64,000 nucleotides of DNA from Siphonodentalium dalli (taxonomy: Eukaryota > Mollusca > Scaphopoda > Gadilida > Siphonodentaliidae), in contig CP136069.1 in the NCBI GenBank assembly GCA_032622095.1, positions 155,299,043-155,363,042 on the forward strand, in the 5' to 3' direction. The notes beneath the pieces were generated by a model, which saw only the letters and a list, made by a program, of their open reading frames with translations, was not told the origin of the DNA and searched no databases. Shown here piece by piece: positions 19,720 through 58,726 of this stretch. Every line of letters begins with the position of its first letter. Positions within the stretch are counted from its first letter, which is position 1. The position numbers and the translations under genes are program-made.

Positions 19720-20375
19720 CAACAAGACTTAAACTTATGAACATAAATTTCTGTTCCATCATGAACAAAAGAGATCAGCTCCAAGCCATTCTTGAAACTG
19801 AGTCTCCTGACATAATAGTTGGCACCGAAACATGGTTGAAGCCACACATCGCTGATGGTGAAATCCTGCCAGTCTCTTGGGTATTCAATATTTAGAAAGG
19901 ACAGACTCAAAGTAAAGGGAGGAGGGGTTTGAATCATTGTCAAAAACTGCCTGACAGTAACAGAACGCTTTCTACCATCCAACATATGTATACCACAGGA
20001 AAGCGAACAGTTATGGGTGAAAATCAAACTCCACTCATGTAAGGGGCTTTATCTTGGAGCTTTCTACCGCCCTAAAGAAAGTGACAAAGTTAGCATAGAT
20101 GCATTGAACCTTAATCTAGAATCAATTGCTAAATTAAACGGACACATTTGGGTAGCCGGGGACTTCAACTTCCTTAATCTCGATTGGGACAAGGAAAATA
20201 TACCCAAAATAAGAAGTAAGTGTCCCAACCTAAAGCTCTATGATGAATTTATCGACCTACTTGACGACTTCACACTAACACAAGTAGTCAGAGGGAAAAC
20301 CAGAGACAAAAACACTCAAGACCTGGCCTTAACATCAGACCCCGCACACAATCAATATAAACTCAGGAGTATCCG
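19720..20375 (+). pseudogene. LINE APE endonuclease domain
   Basis: Begins LKLMNINFCSIMNKRDQL. It contains ETWL (catalytic Glu), YRPKESDK, VAGDFNFLNLDW (GDFN) and a C-terminal GVSDHY (SDH). Two frameshifts split it, one near 19890-20016 and one just before GVSDHY. The domain would nick the target for reverse transcription. The nested LINE starts immediately after the SDH codons. Confidence 0.8.
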
Positions 20376-20381
20376 ACCACT

Positions 20382-20382
<1 letters not shown>

Positions 20383-20412
<30 letters not shown>

Positions 20413-20437
20413 TAATAATAATAATAATAATATTTAT
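20383..20437. repeat. (ATA)n tail of the antisense LINE
   Basis: About 18 trinucleotide units with one GAT interruption. It is the 3' tail of the minus-strand LINE. Confidence 0.9.
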
Positions 20438-21084
20438 ATAGCGCCTATCCCCCGTAAGGGGCCCTAAGCGCTTTACACATTATATAAATACACAAGAAAT
20501 GCACATGCAAAATAATCAATAGATATGTGGAATTATATATACTAGTAACCAGATTTTGTTAGTTTTCTTTGTGTCGGGGTAGCGTCTTCGGAACATATCA
20601 GTTTTAATGCAGATCTAAAATCGGTTAGCAAATAAGATTGCCGCATTTCATTTGGTAGAGAGTTCCAAATGTCGGGACAGGCAACAGAGAAAGCTCTGTC
20701 GCAGACGGTCATAATATGTGCACCTTGTGTTCGCCGGGGAGTGTATGGATATACCAGATGGTTAATATATTCGGGACGGGAATCAGAGACAAATATCCGA
20801 CGGAAACCAAATGTGGCTATTTTGAATTGTATCCGATCTTTGATAGGTAGCCAGTGAAGGTCAGCGTGCATGGTTGTTACGCTACAGCCTTTCCTTCTGC
20901 GAAGTAATATTCTGGCGGCGGTGTCCTGCAAGCGTTGAAGTCTGCTGATTTGCGAATCGGGGAGCCGGAATAATAGTATGTTACAGTAGTTTAGACGACT
21001 CGTTACAAACGAAGCAACAAAGGTTTTTGCTGCGTCAACAGTGAGATATTTGCGGACCTGGCCAAGGCGTCGCAGTTCCAAGAA

Positions 21085-22165
21085 TATATACCTGCAGAGG
21101 TGGTAGATTAATATTATCCATCATGACCTGGGTGTGGGATGGAAAAATCTCACCCGAGGGGCCAGATATTTGGGCCGGACACGAGGCTTGCCGAGTGTCC
21201 GGACCAAATATCTGGCCCCGAGGGTGAGATTTTTCCATCACACACCCCAGGTCATGATGGATCATTTTTCTCCCAACCCAAGAGCCACATTCCGATTTTT
21301 TGTTTTATACCAATCTTTGGCACATTCCAGTAGCTTCGTAACGGTATATCTGGGGAGAAATCTGATTCGATATTCGTGATTAACTGGGATGATGTCGGTA
21401 TATACCAAAGGTATATACACTATAAACAAAGCGCGTTACCCGTGCTCGCAGGGTTAATACGTTAGAGTGAAATCGACACGGTCTTGTGAAAACGACATGG
21501 ATACGTCACATCGTTGCACCTGCATAAATTCCGAGAAACGCGCGTATTGATATGAAGTATATACAACTGGACTAATCGTGTTTGTCATCGGAAATGACCA
21601 TATCGATACCATTTAGAAAAGGAAACATGTGAATATATGACAGACAAATGTTAGTTAGACGCGTTCCACGATTTATTGCAACGATGACAACTGTTCGAAT
21701 GTGGAATTATTTCGTTCGTCATTTGTGAAGCGGTTATTGTTTACCTGTTACGGAATGTGCCAGTGGTACCAGTTTCGCTCGTGGTCTTCCGTTTTATGGA
21801 ATATGTTCGCAAATTAGTCGTTTATATTTCATGTTATATATGCAACTCTGTGTCTGCAAGTGAGGTTACGTTGAAGGTTTTTCGTGATTAACAGTTGAGG
21901 CTTATCTCCATTTGTATTAGCGTCCACGAATTCGTCAGTATTTATTTACTTGAAACGTGAAGCGTAACTGGTTGCATGGTCGCCATTGTTTTTATCTGTT
22001 TTAATTCACACAAAACATGATGATGGATAGTTAAATTAGTTCCGGCTCTTAATTAACTAGGCAAAGCAGTCACGTGGGTGTTGTGAGATAGATGGCCACG
22101 TGTTATGTGAGACAGGGAAATCTCACCCAGCTATCTCACACTGGCTGCCTGTGCTAACGTGTTTA
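21085..22165. mobile_element. Unclassified ~1.08 kb insertion inside the antisense LINE
   Basis: It interrupts the RT between THFSH and ELRRLGQVRKY, residues normally about 10-15 apart, so the insertion limits are good to within about 20-40 bp. Each end carries a hairpin: 21116-21262 on the left, and TGTGAGATAG...CTATCTCACA (about 22083-22140) on the right. Both include a GTGAGATTT- or AAATCTCACC-type block. No coding potential is seen. The superfamily is unknown. Confidence 0.65.
21116..21262. repeat. Hairpin with ~67 nt arms
   Basis: ATCCATCATGACCTGGG at the left end pairs with its complement at the right; the arms include GGAAAAATCTCACC and GGCCAGATATTTGG. The loop is about 12 nt. There are few mismatches. 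Confidence 0.85.
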
Positions 22166-23111
22166 GGGGTGGGAGAAATGTGTCTCCATAGACAGTGTTC
22201 GATCGAGATGGACTCCTAGATTTTTGACACACGGAGAGAAGAAAATAGTGTCACGGTCAGCATGCAGTGATGTAATGTACAATTGGTTGACAATGGATGG
22301 TTTTGCAACCCACATGACTTCAGTTTTGTCATTGTTTAACATCAGTTTATTGGAGGTCATCCAGGTTTTAACAGAGGAAAGACAGCACTCGATCCTATTC
22401 ACTAGGTATGAGTATTGATCGGGTCTGCCGGAAAGTTATAACTGTGTGTCGTCTGCATACATGTGCACACATATTCCTTGCGATCGTATAACATCACCGA
22501 TAGGTTTGGTGTACAGCAGGTATATAATTGGTCCTAGAACTGAGCCCTGGGGCACGCCATAATCAAGATTGTAATACTGTGACAACACATTGCCAATTTG
22601 TATTCTCTGTTGACGACCAGTTAGGTAAGAAACGAACCACTGTAGAACAGTACCGGATATGCCGAATGATCTTTCAAGTCGATGTAGTAGAATTTGATGA
22701 TCAATCGTGTCGAACGCTGCCCTAAGGTCTAACAGACACATAATAGAAACGAGACCTTCATCAGAAGCAACAAGAAGATCAGATGTTATTTTCAGCATTG
22801 CTATGCTCTGTGCGATAAGCAGACTGGAAAGGTTCTCATAGTTTATTATTGTTGTGGTGCGTTTTGAGTTGAAACAGAACAATTTTCTCCAAGACTTTTG
22901 ATATAAACTGCAGGTTAGAGACTGGTCTATAGTGAATATCAGGATCGAGACCAGATTTCTTCAAGAGAGGAACCACAATTGCTTCTTTAAAACAGGCGGG
23001 AACTGAACCACTAGAAAGTGACGCATTAATCAAGTTGGTCAATGGCTCTATCATGAAGTCAATATGTTTAATTATGAGGTATGTAGGTATTGGGTCCAGA
23101 CTGCACGATAT

Positions 23112-25319
23112 TGTATGCATAACAGCAAATCTTAAACCACCAATCACCAAAGCATCACCTAGAACAGTATAACTATACTCCGACGCAGACTGGGAGAGCT
23201 TCAGGGAATACATCCGAACTAACTTTGCCACCATCTTTTGCTCCAAGATATCAGTAGAGGAAATATGGACCCAGTTAAAACACCACATTGAAATAGGTAC
23301 CTCAAAATTTGTCCCTAAGAAAAACATTAAAACCAAAACACCTCTGCCTTGGATTAACAAACGTATCAGGCGCATTATCAAAAGGAGGGACCACCTATTC
23401 CAACAGATGAAAAGATCAGTCAGCCCATTAATTAAACAAAAGCACAGGGCCATGAAACATCTAGCTAAGAAAGAAATTAAACTGGCATATGATAAACACC
23501 TCAGCACCATCCTTGAAGTTGCCAATGAAATACACGTGACGACTCTCAAAACAACAACTACCGACCAATCACTAAGAATCTGTTCTCATTTATTAAGAAA
23601 ACAAAACAGTCCCAGAGCAGCGTTGGACCCATAAAGACACAGCAGGTACAATATAAACAAACAATATAGACATTGCAAATACCCTAAATAACCAATTTCA
23701 GTCAGTCTTCTCATCCAGGAACGCTCTCACTCTGTCACAATTCTCTCTAGCCTCCATCATGTGCCATTTCAGTGAAACCTTTGTGACCATCAACAACTTT
23801 GGATATCCCAACATGGAAAACATAGAGGTCTCAGAGGAAGGAATCCTCAAACTCCTATCAAATCTTAAAATAAACAAAGCAGCTGGACCAGACAATATTA
23901 AACCAATCATTCTGAAACAACTCCGCTACGAAATTGCCCCCTTCTTACCAATCTTATTCAAAAGACCTTGAGGGAAGGTGTCCTCCCACAGGACTGGGTA
24001 AAGGGTAATGTGGTTCCTGTATACAAGAAGGGTGATAAAACAAACCCGGCAAATTATAGACCGATCACCCGTACCTGTATCATCTGTAAACTAACTGAAC
24101 ACATCATCGCAGCCAACATCACGAAGCATCTGAAAAAGAATAAGATCCTCACTGATCTGCAGCATGGCTTCCGGGAAAGAAAATCATGTGAAACACAACT
24201 CGTGCAACTAGCTGATGATCTCATGAGACGCCTTGCTGCAGGTCAGAAGACCGATCTTATCTTACTAGACTTCAGTAAAGCCTTTGACAAGGTCAATCAT
24301 GGCACATTGCTCTATAAACTTGACCATTATGGCATCGGTGGAACCACATTAAACTGGATCAGAGACTTTCTCAACAACAGACCCCAAGTTGTTGTCCTGG
24401 AGGGGGGTGCCTCCACTGAGGTCTCAATAACATCTTGGGTACCCCAGGGCTCTCTTCTGGGGCCCCTGATGTTCCTGCTCTATACATCAATGATTTACCA
24501 AACCACATAACCGCTCAAACACGCTTATTTGCTGATGACACCGCACTATACATGACAATAAATTTCTCAAAAGACTGCGAACAATTACAAAACGACCTGA
24601 ACAAACTACAGACATTGGAGCAAAATTGGGATATGGCCTTTAACCCCTCAAAATGTCAAGTCCTCACAGTCAGCCGCAAAGCAAAACCCATAATTTATGA
24701 CTACATCATACACTCTCAAATACTTGATCATGTCAATAATGCGCGATATTTGGGAATTGACATCACAAGCAATGCCCACATACAACGAACTACTTTAAGT
24801 GCAAATCAGTCCCTGGGATTCCTAAAAAGGAATGTCAAAACAAATAAAGCACTCAAGAAAGCAGCTTATCGGGCCATGGTTAGACAAAAGTTAGAGTATG
24901 CCGCTGCAATTTGGTCCCCTCATACTTCAGAAAACATAACTAAAATTGAACGAGTACAAAATCGGGCCATCCGTTGGATCTTTAATGACTATTCAAGATT
25001 CTCAAGTTTGTCAAAAATGAGGGAAGAATTAAAACTGAAACCCCTTGAGGACAGAAGAACCATCTCAAAATTATCCCTCTTCAGTAAAATAGTCCATAAC
25101 CAAGTATATATCACTATCCCAGATTACCTTCAGAAACCACTCAGACATAGCAGATATAGCAACGCTGACACTTATCGACGAATTCACACTGGGCCAAATT
25201 ATTTTAGACACTCATTCTTCCCAAGCACAGCTATACTCTGGAATCAACTCTCGTCTGATCTGATTAAGCTCTCTGACCATGACCAGTTAAGGAGGAGAGC
25301 TTATCAGCTACAACCATGA
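23112..25319 (+). pseudogene. LINE reverse transcriptase and C-terminal region
   Basis: Resumes the split LINE. A basic linker (KRIRRIIKRRDHLFQQMK) is followed by RT motifs: AAGPDNIKP, VPVYKKGDKTNPANYRPI, LQHGFRERKSCETQL, LLDFSKAFDKVNH, VPQGSLLGPL, LFADDTALYM, YLGIDI, RAIRWIF. Frameshifts lie near 23570, 23960 and 24476. The C-terminus ends ...RRRAYQLQP, a normal position for a CR1-group ORF. Confidence 0.85.
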
Positions 25320-33961: not shown

Positions 33962-34361
33962 TTAACCCTTTACCCAACAAACCGGCCAAAACCGGCCAAA
34001 TAAAGCTTCAACAGCCTAAAATATCTTCGGTCTGTCTAAATAGAACCATACAAATATGGATATCATTGGAACCGGCTCCTTGACCACATTGTGATAGTTA
34101 CAGTTATGTCCTGTGCCAATGCATTCTCTTATATATGCGAGTCGACCATAGGTCGCCTCGCATATATAAGAGAATGCATTGGCCTAAAAAAATTCTTTTT
34201 TTAACACTTTTTACCATTTTTTCTTACATTCTTTAACAATTTTATAATATTTAATGTGTTAAGCCAATGCATTCTCTTATATATGCGAGGCGACCTATGG
34301 TCGACTCGCATATATAAGAGAATGCATTGGCACAGGGCCCTTCTGTTGGGTAAAGGGTTAA
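33962..34361. mobile_element. TTAA-flanked MITE (piggyBac-like) with nested hairpin MITE
   Basis: TTAA at 33962-33965 and 34358-34361. TIRs CCCTTTACCCAACA (14 bp) begin at 33966 and end at 34357. The element proper is 392 bp, of which 34110-34336 is a nested hairpin MITE. An uninterrupted paralogue at 33878-33905 shows the TTAA site unoccupied. Confidence 0.85.
34110..34336. mobile_element. Hairpin MITE (CCCTGTGCC family), intact symmetrical copy
   Basis: Starts CCTGTGCCAATGCATTCTC and ends GCATTGGCACAGG. Each end is itself a palindrome of about 66 nt (34115-34183 and 34263-34331), so the element is a palindrome of palindromes with a ~75 bp AT-rich spacer. Same family as 4172 and 17132. Confidence 0.85.
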
Positions 34362-43575: not shown

Positions 43576-44374
43576 CTAAACTATGGAATCCTATTACGGC
43601 CACTTGCTAATGGCGCTTTCGGCGCACTTTTTGTCGCTTTCGGCGCGATCGGCGCATCGCGCCGAAAGCGACAAAATGTGCGCCGATCGGCGCACTTTTT
43701 GTCGCTTTCGGCGCTTTCGGCGCGCGCGCCGAAAGCGACAAAATGTGCGCCATTAGCGTTGTTTCGGCGCGCGCCGAAAGCGCCGAAAGCGACAAAACAT
43801 GCGCCATTACGGCGCACTTTTTGTCGCTTTCGGCGCTTTCGGCGCACCGCGCCGAAAGCGACAAAATATGCGCCATTAGTGCAATCGGCGCGGTGCGCCA
43901 TTAGTGCATTCGGCGCGGTGCGCCATTAGCGCGGTGCGCCGAAAGCGACAAAATATGCGCCATTAGCGCATGTACAATTAAGTATGTGATCACCCCAGCA
44001 GGGGTGCCGGAAGAGGGGGCAGATGGGGCAGCTGACCCCCTGCCCTTGACCAAGGGGGCGAGCGGGGGCAGGACTTGCCCTTTTTCTGGAGAAAGAAAAT
44101 GCTTTTTGTGTGTTTAATCTCATGTTTTTACAGTAAAATGTGACTTTTTTTTGTCCAAATACCACCAATTTCACAAGGAATATAAATTTTTTGTCAATTT
44201 TGTCACAAAACGGCCATAAAAACCGACAAATACCTTTAAAATAGGGATTTTTGCCACAATGAATTTATGGTTATTTTTCCGAGTTTGCGGAGAAAATGCC
44301 CTGACCATTTCGGCGACAAAAAGTGCGCCGAAAGCGCCATTAGCAAGTGGCCGTAATAGGATTCCATACTAAAC
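43576..44374. mobile_element. Palindrome-array DNA transposon, copy 1, 6 bp TSD
   Basis: The element proper is 43582-44368 (787 bp) with CTAAAC on both sides (43576-43581 and 44369-44374). TIRs of about 50 bp begin TATGGAATCCTATTACGGCC and run through CACTTGCTAATGGCGC. The interior has about nine alternating-orientation copies of GCGCCGAAAGCGACAAAA, so it can fold repeatedly. A region at about 43970-44300 lacks the array and holds a G-rich patch. No transposase. Termini TAYGG with 6 bp TSDs match what I recall for the IS3EU superfamily; this assignment is from memory. Confidence 0.85.
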
Positions 44375-48263: not shown

Positions 48264-49353
48264 AGATGACATACATGAGGGCGTTGAGTGTGGTGTGTTC
48301 ATGTCGATGTATAGGAAGAAAACACACGGAAAGTTCCTACATTATGTTAATGTGACACCTATAATAAATTAGGCGGCCATAACCATGCATAATGGCAATG
48401 TCGCGTGCTATCTCTGGTTTTGTGGTTTACTAAAAATAAAGTTGTGCTCTCGAAATAGACATAATAAACACACGATGGGGCGCTGGAAGGAACTAATTAT
48501 TTCCCATTATAGGGCGTGGTGTTAGCGTTCTGTCTCGACTTTCCCCTTCAATTCCAGAGGAACCAAACCTGGGACATAATTTGAATTGGAAAAATATTCG
48601 GGGTACGGGTCTTTTCAGTTTAAATTTCTCGCTTTCATAACTACCAATTCAGCAGCAAATTTTGAAAACACAAATTCACCTACTCTATATCATTTATAAT
48701 CCCAAATTCCCACAATAATAAATACAGTTCATATTCAATAAATACATGATCTGATCAGGAAATGCATATTTTAAAATTTTATGCATTTAATTTTCTGAAG
48801 ATAATACACTAATCGGGTGCCTGGGATGTTTTAATCCGTAGAATAGTACCCCTGTATTTTTCCAGCGAGAGTATTTAATAAGTTTAATTGAATTGAATTA
48901 AGAAGTTTCAAAACAACATCTCGATAGCCCATGTTGCACATGTATGCGTCCACCAATGCGAAGATGCTGATAACTATTTCTGCATATGTTCCCGCTATAA
49001 CTTTTGAACGAATGGATATATATATTTCGCTATATATAGAGAGAAGGATTTAAACTTACACATATGAATGATTTTATGTCTGGCATCCAGAACACCCGTA
49101 CCAAACGAAACGTGAAACTAATCAAAATATTCCAACAACTTATTGCAACGAAATTGTTTTGATCACGACAATTAACTAATTAATTAAGGAAAATATCATG
49201 TTCCGCCGCACCAAACACAATGCAATGGGTGCTGGCACCTCCAGTCGAGGCGATAAATAACAACATTAATAACTCACCCCCACTTCACTCACCCCCCCCC
49301 CAACCCCAAACCTGAAACTAAACCCACCACCCCCACACCTATATTTTCCTGAT
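48264..49353. other. No recognisable coding; possible 5' UTR of next LINE
   Basis: The C-rich stretch at 49275-49345 directly upstream of the LINE ORF may be its 5' region. Nothing else is recognised. Confidence 0.4.
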
Positions 49354-50545
49354 TTGATAGAGAAAAACACTCAGCACCCCTTAATAAATAATCTACCCAT
49401 CCAAACAGATATGCAGCATAAAAATAACACGGCGCACGGTGATGCTGATTGTGATGCTGATGATGATAATGATGATGTTGACGACGATGATGTTGAAGAT
49501 GGCGATGGTGAAGACGACGATGTTGGTGATGATGATGATGAAGACGACGACGATGATGGTGAGGGTAATACGAGTGAAGGTGTTGGTAAGGTAAATGTAT
49601 TAGCACTCAATGTTGGTAGCTTACGTAAGCGACTACATTATCCAGAATTCATTTCATTACTGAACACATTTGACATAATCTGTCTGTCAGAAACAAAGCT
49701 ATTCGCGGGTGAATCGATTGATATACCTAACTTTGACGTTGTGTCACAGAGGGGAAGGCCAACATCAGGCAACAGTTGTGCAGGTGGATTAATTGTTGCG
49801 ACTAACCGGTTAACAGGTATAAAAGTGAAAAACATCGATTGTGCTTTGGAGAACATGTTATGGGTTCAACGTTCAACCCATGATAACGTTACCTCACGAT
49901 GCCTTCTTATTGGTTTTGTTTATATTCCCCCAGAGAATACAAAATATGTTAATAATAACTAGAATGCAGAATTAGAAGGGGAGCTTCTTCAAAAGCGTGA
50001 ACATGATGTAGATATTCTTCTAGTCTGTGACTTTAATGCCCGCACAGCGCGCTTAGATGATCGTATTGAGTTAACAACCGACTCACACCCTGATATCACA
50101 AAACCCTCACTTGTGCGAGTATATGTTCGATTGTGATAATATGGCCACTTTTGATATTCCGGAAAGATGTACCGATGACACTGGTAAAGCTAACTCATTT
50201 GGCTATAAACTAATTCACACCTGTCAATTTGGGAACATATATATACTGAATGGTCGCGTTGGAAAAGACAAGGGGATTGGCAAACGAACATGCCGCAATG
50301 CAAGTTTGGTTGATTATGCCATTGGATCGAGGACTGTTTTTGCTTATGTTACTGATTTTGAAATATTAGATTTCTGTTCTCTTTTTTCTGACGTCCATTG
50401 TGGAATTAGTGTCCAACTAGACTTACGACATTTGAGTATTGCGCGTACAGTCGATGTGGCGAATGACAAGGTAAGTTTTGCGTTGGGACCGAGGATAACA
50501 CCATTACATGGGATAACCTCAAGTCTGAAGAATATACGAAACACG
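49354..50545 (+). pseudogene. LINE acidic leader and APE endonuclease
   Basis: Residues about 33-70 are almost all Asp, Glu and Gly, encoded by GAT/GAC repeats (49440-49570). Endonuclease follows from about residue 78: catalytic Glu in LSETKL, DFN in VCDFNARTARLDD, and the C-terminal SDVHCGI where SDH is usual. A TAG at 49960 and frameshifts near 50105 and 50475 break it. Confidence 0.75.
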
Positions 50546-50574
50546 TCAGCGAACGTCTTGATGCATTACGTAAC

Positions 50575-52783
50575 ATGATGAACTGTGTGGAAATGAATCC
50601 CACAAGACATGGTATAAATAATTTGGCCCATTTGATCTCTCGTGTTTTATCGGAATCGGCAGTTGATACATTTGGGACTTACCGTGAACGCAACAAGCGT
50701 ACAAAACAAACATGCAAACCAGATCAGAGGTGGTTCGATTATGAATGTCGTAGTTACCGAAAGAAATTCAATTCTGCGCGGAAACGATATAACAGAAATA
50801 AGTCAAAAACCACCAAATCTGATCTAAGACAGGTGAGTACATGGTATAAGAAAATTATGGAAGAATTAGAATGTACAGATCACCTTAACCTACCAATTTG
50901 TTCAGAAGAGATATCTGCTGTTGTCGGGGCCATGAATCAAACAAGGCTGTAGGTATCGACAACGTGAACAACAGTTACATTAAATACACACTTAATATAT
51001 TACTGCCATTTTATACTAGGTTATTTAATTTGATTCTTGATACTGGATTTTTTCGTGATGTCTGGACAACCGGTATGATTAAGCCATTATATAAAAATAA
51101 GGGCGACAGATTATGTCCCGACTCTTATAGAGGCATAACCTTACTGAGTTGCGTCGGTAAGTTATTTACTGGTATTATCAACAACAGACTTAATAGTTAC
51201 GTAGAAGAAAACCACATACTTAAAGATAATCAATCCGTTTTCGGAAAGGTAGATCTAAATTAGACAACATCTTTAATTTATACAGTTTAACAGAAATATA
51301 TTTGCGGAATGGGAGAAAACTTTTCTGCTCATTTATAGATTTCAAAAAAGCGTTTGATACTGTTTGGAGAGAGGGCCTATGGGTAAAACTTTTACGAAAT
51401 GGTATAAACGGTAGGATTTTCAAAGTTATTCGTAACATGTATGACTCAACTAAATCTTGTGTATTGAAAGGTGACGTAAGATCTGAGTATTTCATATATA
51501 ATATAGGTGTTAAACAGGGTGACCTGTCACCTTTACTCTTTTCAATGTATTTGAATGATCTTGAAGACTTTTTAGAAAATTGCGCTGTAAATGGACTCAA
51601 GTACTTGAATGATCAAGCCTTTAAACATATTGGTTGTTATCTGAAACTTTGGTGCATCTTGTACGCTGATGACACCGCTTTATTGGCGGATAACCCTACT
51701 GATATGCAGCGACTTCTTGATGCATTCGCAGACTATTGCGAATCATGGGAACTTACCGTCAACGTATAAAAGACAAAGGTTACGGTTTTCGGAAATAAAC
51801 GTATTCACACGCCGCCAAAGTTTATCTTGAACGGTAACGAGCTTGAAATTGTGGACGAATTTACATACCTTGGTATTGACTTGTTCTATAACGGCAGATT
51901 TTGTCGTGCAGTCAAGAAAACTCGGATAAAAGCTACTAAAGCAATATACGCGCTACTTTCGAAAGTGTGTAATCTTCATTTATCTGTCGATTTATCTTTG
52001 AAACTATTTGACTATCTAGTCCAACCGATTTTATTGTACGGTTGTGAGATTTGGGGGTTCGAAAATTGTCGCGATATTGAAACGGTACACTTATGATTTT
52101 GTAAAACATTGACGAATATGAAAAGTAGCACGCCGAGTTATATGGTTTATGGAGAGTTAGGCCGATGGCATCTTTCTATTGAGATCAAGAAGAGAATGAT
52201 CTCATATTGGTGCCGTATTATAAAGAAAGATATAGGTATAACATCAGTACTTTATAAATTATTGCTTGAATTGCACAAAACTAAACGCGTACGTTATATT
52301 GATCATATTTCAGGAGTTATCGAGTCCGCAAATCTCAATGATAACTGGGACAACCAAACTCCTCTGCCATGCAGCTCCTTTAGAAGATTTAATGATACAC
52401 TAATTCAAGAGTTTAGAACTCAGTGGCGAATCGATGTTGATTCTTCGGATAGAGGGGAGTTTTATAAACACATGAAAGTACAGCCTTCAATTAGCTGGCA
52501 CTACATGAACATGCCATTTGGCATGATGGTTTACGTTCAGAAAATGAGAACGTCCAATCATAGATTAGGTGTTGAGACCGGTAGATGGAAAAAACGGAAT
52601 CGCAATCATAAAAGCAGCAACAAAGATAGTTCATGCGCACTTTGTAACGCCTTGCTATGCGATGAATTCCATTTTATTATTATGAACAATTACGAAACAA
52701 ATACATTCCGAAGGCATGTTATGACGAACCTTCGAGAGAACTATTATTCGAACTTCTTAACTCGACCAACCCTGACATATTAA
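50575..52783 (+). pseudogene. LINE reverse transcriptase and C-terminal domain
   Basis: Basic linker (YRERNKRTKQTCKPDQRWF), RT fingers (AVGIDNVNNSYIKY, MIKPLYKNKGD, YRGITLLSC), palm (FIDFKKAFDTVW, GVKQGDLSPLLFS, YADDTALLA), thumb-like YGCEIWGFE, MVYGELGRWHLS, then the C-terminal CALCNALLCDEFHF motif. Frameshifts near 50940 and 51240, and stops at 51767 and 52094. Confidence 0.8.
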
Positions 52784-58229: not shown

Positions 58230-58726
58230 GGTGAGTATGGAATCCTATTAGGGCCACTTGCTAATGGCGCCTTCGGCGCACTTTTTGTCGCTTTCGGCGC
58301 GCGCCGAAACATACCCTAATGGCGCACTTTTTGTCGCTTCCGGCGCGCGCCATTAGGGAGTGGACCTAATAGTATGCCTAATGGCGCTTTCGGCGCGCGC
58401 CGAAAGCGACAAAAAGTGCGCCATTAGTAACGCGCCGAAAGCGACAAAATGTGCGCCGTTACGGCGCACATTTTGTCGCTTTCGGCGCGCCGATACATGC
58501 GCTAATATCGCACATTTTGTCGCTTTCGGCGCGCGCGCCGAAAGTGCCGAAAGCGACAAAAAGTGCGCGGAAAGCGACAAAAAGTTCGCCGTAACGGCGC
58601 ATATTTTGTCGCTTTCGGCGCGTTACTAATGGCGTTTTTTTGTCGCTTTCGGCGCTTTCGGCGCATCCCGTCGAAAGCGCCGAAAGCGCCATTAGCAAGT
58701 GGCCATAATAGGATTCCATAGGTGAG
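58230..58726. mobile_element. Palindrome-array DNA transposon, copy 2, 6 bp TSD
   Basis: Element proper 58236-58720 (485 bp), flanked by GGTGAG at 58230-58235 and 58721-58726. TIRs TATGGAATCCTATTAGGGCC / GGCCATAATAGGATTCCATA extend through CACTTGCTAATGGCGC, as in copy 1. The interior is the same alternating array of GCGCCGAAAGCGACAAAA. It sits in the Helitron at 57157, so it is younger. Confidence 0.85.

Follow-up and report, generated by a model that had tools for sequence, protein, structure and literature searches.

A fold-back transposon family with IS3EU-like ends in Siphonodentalium dalli, in which palindromic arms turn over by blocks around near-identical interiors

IS3EU transposons are characterized, as far as the account in PMC10045372 extends, by TA..TA termini and usually 6-bp target-site duplications (TSDs). 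Those of rust fungi carry terminal inverted repeats (TIRs) longer than 30 bp that end in TAYGG..CCRTA and are flanked by 6-bp TSDs, according to the part of PMC12730594 that describes them. That the arms of fold-back elements are dynamic is already known from Galileo and Tetris; for IS3EU, no report of fold-back arrays or fast arm turnover was found in the portions of the open-access literature available, Repbase aside, and no report of an IS3EU minicircle was found in the open-access literature. Here, we describe a palindromic transposon family in Siphonodentalium dalli whose ends match this little-studied group. The new point is that its palindromic arms turn over by blocks while its interiors stay near-identical.

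The family was recognized in a 64,000-nt stretch of genomic DNA (the window) from a 787-bp element at 43582-44368, which has TATGG...CCATA termini and CTAAAC on both flanks (Table 1). Its TIRs, estimated at about 50 bp in a preliminary description of this DNA, are 56 bp each and 100% complementary with zero mismatches, and the 6-bp duplication reported there is present at both ends. The left 394 bp comprise the TIR and an array of the module GCGCCGAAAGCGACAAAA in both orientations, including several partial modules, whereas the right arm is a bare TIR. About nine strictly alternating modules had been proposed; both orientations do occur, with eight exact copies (five forward, three reverse), but in the mixed order - + - + + - + +. 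Nor is the whole interior modular, as had been thought, since the array is confined to the left side and is followed by a non-modular core. With up to three mismatches allowed, the module has 27 matches in the window, all within two elements, against 0.02 expected from shuffles. The GC content of the array is 59.5% compared with 38.5% for the window, and its folding is far stronger than that of 100 shuffles (z = -15.8), in agreement with the earlier impression of a GC-rich, self-folding block in AT-rich surroundings. The core aligns in inverted orientation with a 3-kb relative, L055, over 331 columns at 85% identity with gaps. The best genome matches span bases 7-727 of 799 in one piece and leave the remainder uncovered; because they stop at base 727, the window copy looks like a shortened derivative of longer relatives, with its right arm cut to the bare TIR.

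Table 1. Features of the two family members in the window (positions counted from the first base of the window).
Feature	Position	Strand	Remarks
Left TSD CTAAAC	43576..43581	.	From sequence; exact 6-bp match
Left TIR, 56 bp, TATGGAATCCTATTACGG...	43582..43637	+	100% complementary to 44313-44368
Palindromic module array	43608..43975	.	GCGCCGAAAGCGACAAAA, 8 exact (5 +, 3 -) plus partial copies
Non-modular core of window copy	43976..44312	-	Inverted homology to right interior of L055
Right TIR, 56 bp, ends ...GGATTCCATA	44313..44368	-	Complementary to left TIR
Right TSD CTAAAC	44369..44374	.	From sequence
Left TSD GGTGAG, second copy	58230..58235	.	
Second copy, 485 bp	58236..58720	.	Modules in both orientations along its length
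Right TSD GGTGAG, second copy	58721..58726	.	

The preliminary description captured the element at 43576-44374 and missed a second modular copy at 58236-58720, which has a left terminus of the GGGCCA type. When the window was searched for inverted pairs, perfect over 20 bp and flanked by exact 6-bp repeats, the 43582-44368 element and four further pairs were recovered; the second copy is absent from this list because its perfect TIR match is only 15 bp. All four further pairs fall in one palindrome near 34.2 kb, and their "6-mers" are self-complementary. This palindrome (window 34112-34334, about 220 bp) is either another fold-back element or a nested palindrome, and each of its arms contains GCCAATGCATTCTCTTATATATGCGAG plus an inverted copy of GCCAATGCATTCTCTTATATATGCGAG. 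Elsewhere in the window, open frames at 19933-25319 and 49273-52783 resemble, by eye, the reverse transcriptase and endonuclease of non-LTR retrotransposons.

A whole-genome search with the TIR, as the preliminary description had advised, recovered many copies. In the genome of 2.23 Gb (9 contigs), 1,871 places match the outermost 21 bases of the TIR with at most one mismatch (941 + 930; reversed control, 0 + 0). The terminus comes in two types, CGGCCA and GGGCCA, and a 34-place terminus pattern left open at this C/G base has 698 + 693 matches. There are 8,206 exact modules (4,106 + 4,100; reversed control, 0 + 0), and a 30-base interior marker of one 3-kb subfamily matches 55 + 56 times with up to one mismatch. 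The module was absent from the viral contigs searched, a collection that may leave out records close to the genome of the window. Copies are scattered over all 9 contigs and range from 114 bp (L016) and 263 bp (L026) through about 0.5 kb, 0.8 kb, 1.2-1.8 kb, and 2.8-3.3 kb to multi-unit forms. The perfect TIR match is at least 34 bp in 28 of the 30 elements measured, the shortest being those of the second window copy (15 bp) and L007 (14 bp). Members share the structural feature of the fold-back class, namely long, internally repetitive inverted arms that are able to fold. At L034 1340-2812, one element is nested in another, and both have a 6-bp TSD of their own (ATATTT inside, GATTTA outside).

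The smallest member bears on the role of the modules. L016 is a 114-bp hairpin with about one module per arm and an exact 6-bp TSD, CATATG, which suggests that module iteration is dispensable for mobility, unless the element shrank after inserting. With the same proviso, and from L016 alone, about 57 bp per end may be enough for mobility. The modules had been interpreted as amplified transposase-binding or fold-back units; the fold-back part agrees with their form, while an amplification of binding sites is, subject to the same proviso, not supported by this one-module-per-arm copy with its exact TSD.

TSDs were assessed in a non-random sample of 47 paired termini, reduced to 37 outermost pairs by dropping those with an end at an internal TIR or at a boundary between two units. 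It comprises both window copies, the best matches to the window element (L002-L008), the non-duplicate loci among the first 30 C1 termini (L009-L038) that have a partner inside the stretch, a set picked for two termini up to about 9 kb apart (L039-L058), and two loci fetched later (L079 and L084). The preliminary description had made the definition of the element depend on 6-bp TSDs in other copies. An exact 6-bp duplication is present in 27 of the 37 outermost pairs, compared with 0 of 1,332 in a cross-paired control, and no pair among the 37 has an exact duplication of 3, 4, 5, 7, 8, 9, or 10 bp; on this test, the definition holds in the copies sampled. At position 2 of the duplicated sequences C is avoided, as is G at the symmetrical position 5 (1 of 54 positions). 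Mutator-like fold-back elements have TSDs of 8-11 bp and members of the P superfamily, such as Galileo, of 7-8 bp; neither assignment fits, since exact TSDs in the pairs sampled are 6 bp only.

The same counts bear on whether the repeat is mobile at all. A satellite-like or host-functional palindromic repeat, with a coincidental match of the flanking 6-mers, could account for the thousands of exact modules and for a site at C5:251677023-251677586, where the terminus TATGGAATCCTATTA itself is the unit of a tandem array with a period of about 38 bp. Such an origin is contradicted by the 27 of 37 pairs that carry a 6-bp TSD, against none in the control, and the dispersal of copies across all 9 contigs also argues against it; we consider it highly improbable. 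The C5 array is a satellite growing from a transposon end.

In four of the remaining ten pairs, 4-7 bases of filler separate the element from a displaced 6-bp duplication (control, 8 of 1,332). The fillers are CATAG in L004, TATATGG in L008, TATG in L053, and CATAC in L058, and each includes four or more bases of the TIR tip, forward or inverted. By eye, L053 and L058 could be read as longer TSDs, of 10 bp with one mismatch and about 11-12 bp with a gap, respectively. The other six of the 37 pairs (L002, L009, L041, L047, L079, and L084) have no recognizable TSD even when displacement is allowed.

Copies of one 3-kb subfamily allow the arms to be compared with the sequence between them. Thirteen were examined, and the most diverged, L045, was dropped because its anchors were not found. 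In the 12 others, left arms measure 132-759 bp and right arms 221-661 bp, whereas the interior between the anchors measures 2,101-2,224 bp; left arms are distinct in 12 of 12 copies and right arms in 11 of 12. Interiors were compared pairwise in 10 copies (45 pairs; L049 and L056 were also left out), with aligned bases 99.82% identical and a gap fraction of 0.011. In contrast, the gap fraction of the arms (12 copies, 66 pairs per side) is 0.37 on the left and 0.32 on the right, although their aligned bases are 98.1% (left) and 99.5% (right) identical. Gaps of at least 8 bp number 5.5 per pair in the left arm, 3.3 in the right arm, and 0.93 in the interior. Because aligned arm bases are near-identical and gap fractions high, arm differences are mainly the gain or loss of whole blocks. 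Whole interiors compared with L055 by blast, with gaps counted, are 97.2-98.5% identical. The observed/expected ratio of CpG is 1.7-2.1 in arms and 0.35-0.38 in interiors.

The preliminary description also likened the ends to those of IS3EU. Exact 6-bp TSDs at 27 of 37 pairs, TATGG..CCATA termini in both window copies (and, by construction of the search, in fetched relatives), and a perfect TIR of 56 bp in the window copy, where fungal families exceed 30 bp, all fit the features in the published accounts available; no transposase has been tied to these ends. In the 22 long stretches (L039-L058, L079, and L080), no transposase-sized frame was found by a search that could miss an intron-split gene, and the longest stop-to-stop frame, 247 aa, runs through modules. 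The preliminary description had advised looking for a longer relative with the same ends and a transposase; relatives of up to 3.3 kb do exist, and none in these stretches was seen to carry such a frame. A recurring 131-aa frame in the 3-kb relatives was set aside, being conserved no more than neighboring non-coding sequence; its Pfam matches are all below cut-off, and we take it to be open by chance, the family being young. The family appears to be non-autonomous, of the fold-back type.

The genome does carry IS3/IS481-like genes. Of 241 candidates for genes with an rva_4 (PF24764) integrase core, which we infer to be the IS3EU transposase, 150 were scored as hits; many contain no stops, and some occur as near-identical copies. 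One of them (L082) also matches IS481 and IS3 transposase models weakly, below cut-off; at 1264-2801 of this locus there are two overlapping minus-strand frames, the downstream one being the rva_4 integrase core and the upstream one having weak SAM and helix-turn-helix matches. TATGG..CCATA ends were not found to enclose any transposase gene, and no rva_4 gene was found tied to them. By eye, no terminus lies within 100 kb of an rva_4 hit in the full pattern-search lists or among the first 100 places of the 21-base and 34-place terminus searches. Two closer approaches were noticed by eye. The complete copy at C2:180587276-180588841 has a degenerate rva_4 fragment (37.5 bits, 4 stops) about 2.8 kb beyond it, a proximity that we estimate is expected by chance; on C8, an rva_4 hit and a marker of the 3-kb copies are about 15 kb apart. 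No such terminus is present in the 3' flanks of L083 and L085, which represent two rva_4 families, and no inverted ends with a 6-bp flanking repeat were found around the rva_4 genes in 1.2-3.6-kb stretches of L081, L082, L083, and L085.

Other candidates for an autonomous partner were likewise rejected. Twenty IS481-profile loci, with frames of up to 1,043 aa, were tested against the 15-base tip at a limit of 4 mismatches and gave only poor tip matches. Genome searches with terminus patterns that exclude the known continuation linked no partner. L084, with an odd terminus, is a 167-bp array element without a TSD. Two long spans proved to be a dimer (L079) and a stretch with a pair of left ends but no right end (L080). 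Separately, L083 (C1:167967200-167969200) and about 20 similar places form a young rva_4 gene family. It includes three copy pairs about 24-62 kb apart (e.g., C9:100236397 and C9:100259985), and in many of its copies the alignment breaks off at L083 position 1896. Near 137.72-137.75 Mb on C3, the flank contributes a 183-bp piece that recurs about every 3.5 kb.

With no transposase linked to the ends, the family could instead be mobilized by an enzyme of another superfamily with a similar stagger, such as a Polinton-type integrase or one of an undescribed lineage; Polinton TSDs are likewise 6 bp, by the relevant part of PMC10045372. We think this unlikely, as TATGG..CCATA ends, TIRs of more than 30 bp, and 6-bp TSDs together form the IS3EU signature in the published descriptions consulted. 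To our knowledge, no other superfamily combines these ends, this TIR length, and this TSD.

We propose as the best explanation that this is a non-autonomous fold-back DNA transposon, probably moved in trans by an IS3EU/GingerRoot-type DDE transposase, with arms that turn over blockwise. The presumed enzyme would recognize a putative binding site consisting of the TATGGAATCCTATTA[C/G]GGCCACTTGC terminus and the first module, and both ends would be joined to target DNA with a 6-bp stagger, matching the TSD observed. The outermost module is part of the TIR, and its inward reiteration in both orientations yields hairpin-forming arms. These gain and lose whole blocks, the probable route being template switching among inverted copies, or gap repair between them that is interrupted. 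The window copy would have retained a single modular arm together with some of the interior, its other arm being trimmed to the bare TIR.

Several loci contain more than one unit or an internal terminus. L040 (5.6 kb) has an internal right TIR and a single outer TSD, GTTTAG; either the whole moved together or an internal duplication followed its insertion. In L047, which lacks an outer TSD, three units meet at two internal junctions that both read CCATA-C-TATGG. As judged by blast, its unit 1 is of the L055 type across the interior, unit 3 is of the other type, and unit 2 is of the other type on the left and the L055 type on the right; because unit 2 joins these types in this way, one unequal crossover may have turned a two-unit tandem into three. 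L079 is a dimer without outer TSD in which the TIRs are joined without their tips, as in a collapsed abutted junction. The left arms of L046, L055, L057, and L079 each terminate in an entire inverted TIR that is followed directly by the interior GTAACTTC, and L056 has the identical inner TIR followed by sequence about 130 bp further in. Deletions anchored exactly at the inner TIR end would fit transposase cutting there.

Within the IS3EU-type explanation, a sub-case is that the element moves, at least sometimes, by IS3-like copy-out/paste-in via a circular intermediate with ends abutting over 1-2 bp, leaving head-to-tail multimers and tip filler as traces of the abutted junction; its arms would be rebuilt during replicative copy-out, which would explain their block-wise change beside 99.8% identical interiors. 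Both internal junctions of L047 and the collapsed junction of the L079 dimer agree with it, as do L004 (CATA-G-TATGG) and L008 (CCATA-TA-TATGG), where an opposite-end tip and a 1- or 2-bp spacer, respectively, stand between the element and a displaced 6-bp TSD of a kind found in only 8 of 1,332 control pairs. The spacer of the IS2 circle junction is one or two bp in a ratio of 90:10, as given in the relevant part of PMC3299598, and IS30 tandem dimers are described, in the material available on them, as arising from one or two copies. However, these are just four loci of 37, and no further case of ends meeting within 3 bp turned up among the termini listed. The fillers of L053 and L058 are tip copies in direct order, an arrangement not predicted by the model, and they could be imperfect duplications of 10-12 bp; the array of L047, lacking an outer TSD, could result from end-to-end joining or an adjacent deletion; and no circle was observed. 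We regard this route as distinctly unlikely, and a circular-intermediate reading of the abutted ends in L047, L004, and L008 as speculative. If the junction traces are real, they would bear on whether eukaryotic IS3 relatives kept the circular-intermediate pathway.

Overall, this large, recently active fold-back family is well suited to testing how palindromic arms are rebuilt, with near-identical interiors serving as an internal clock for measuring arm turnover. L016, if it moved at 114 bp, would limit the sequence required for mobility to about 57 bp at each end.

Finally, the family can be placed beside the closest described systems, within the extent of the published accounts available for each. 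It resembles IS3EU/GingerRoot in TAYGG..CCRTA ends, TIRs longer than 30 bp, and 6-bp TSDs, and differs in that no transposase was seen in its copies or linked to them. With the circle junction of IS2 and the IS3 family, it shares abutted ends with a 1- or 2-bp spacer (PMC3299598); those junctions are bacterial and experimentally shown, whereas here they are a few genomic junction sequences. Tetris and DAIBAM of Drosophila virilis are similar in that a non-autonomous fold-back element shares TIR ends with a MITE and internal repeats seed satellite arrays, but the TIRs there contain tandem repeats of about 220 bp (PMC4079207). Similarly, the TIRs of Galileo, of the P superfamily, are long and internally repetitive and differ widely in length from copy to copy, with recent activity and gain and loss of repeats within them (PMC3573991). 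Its repeats are direct tandem units of about 210 bp together with recruited sequence, whereas the arms described here are built from a unit of about 18-35 bp in both orientations.
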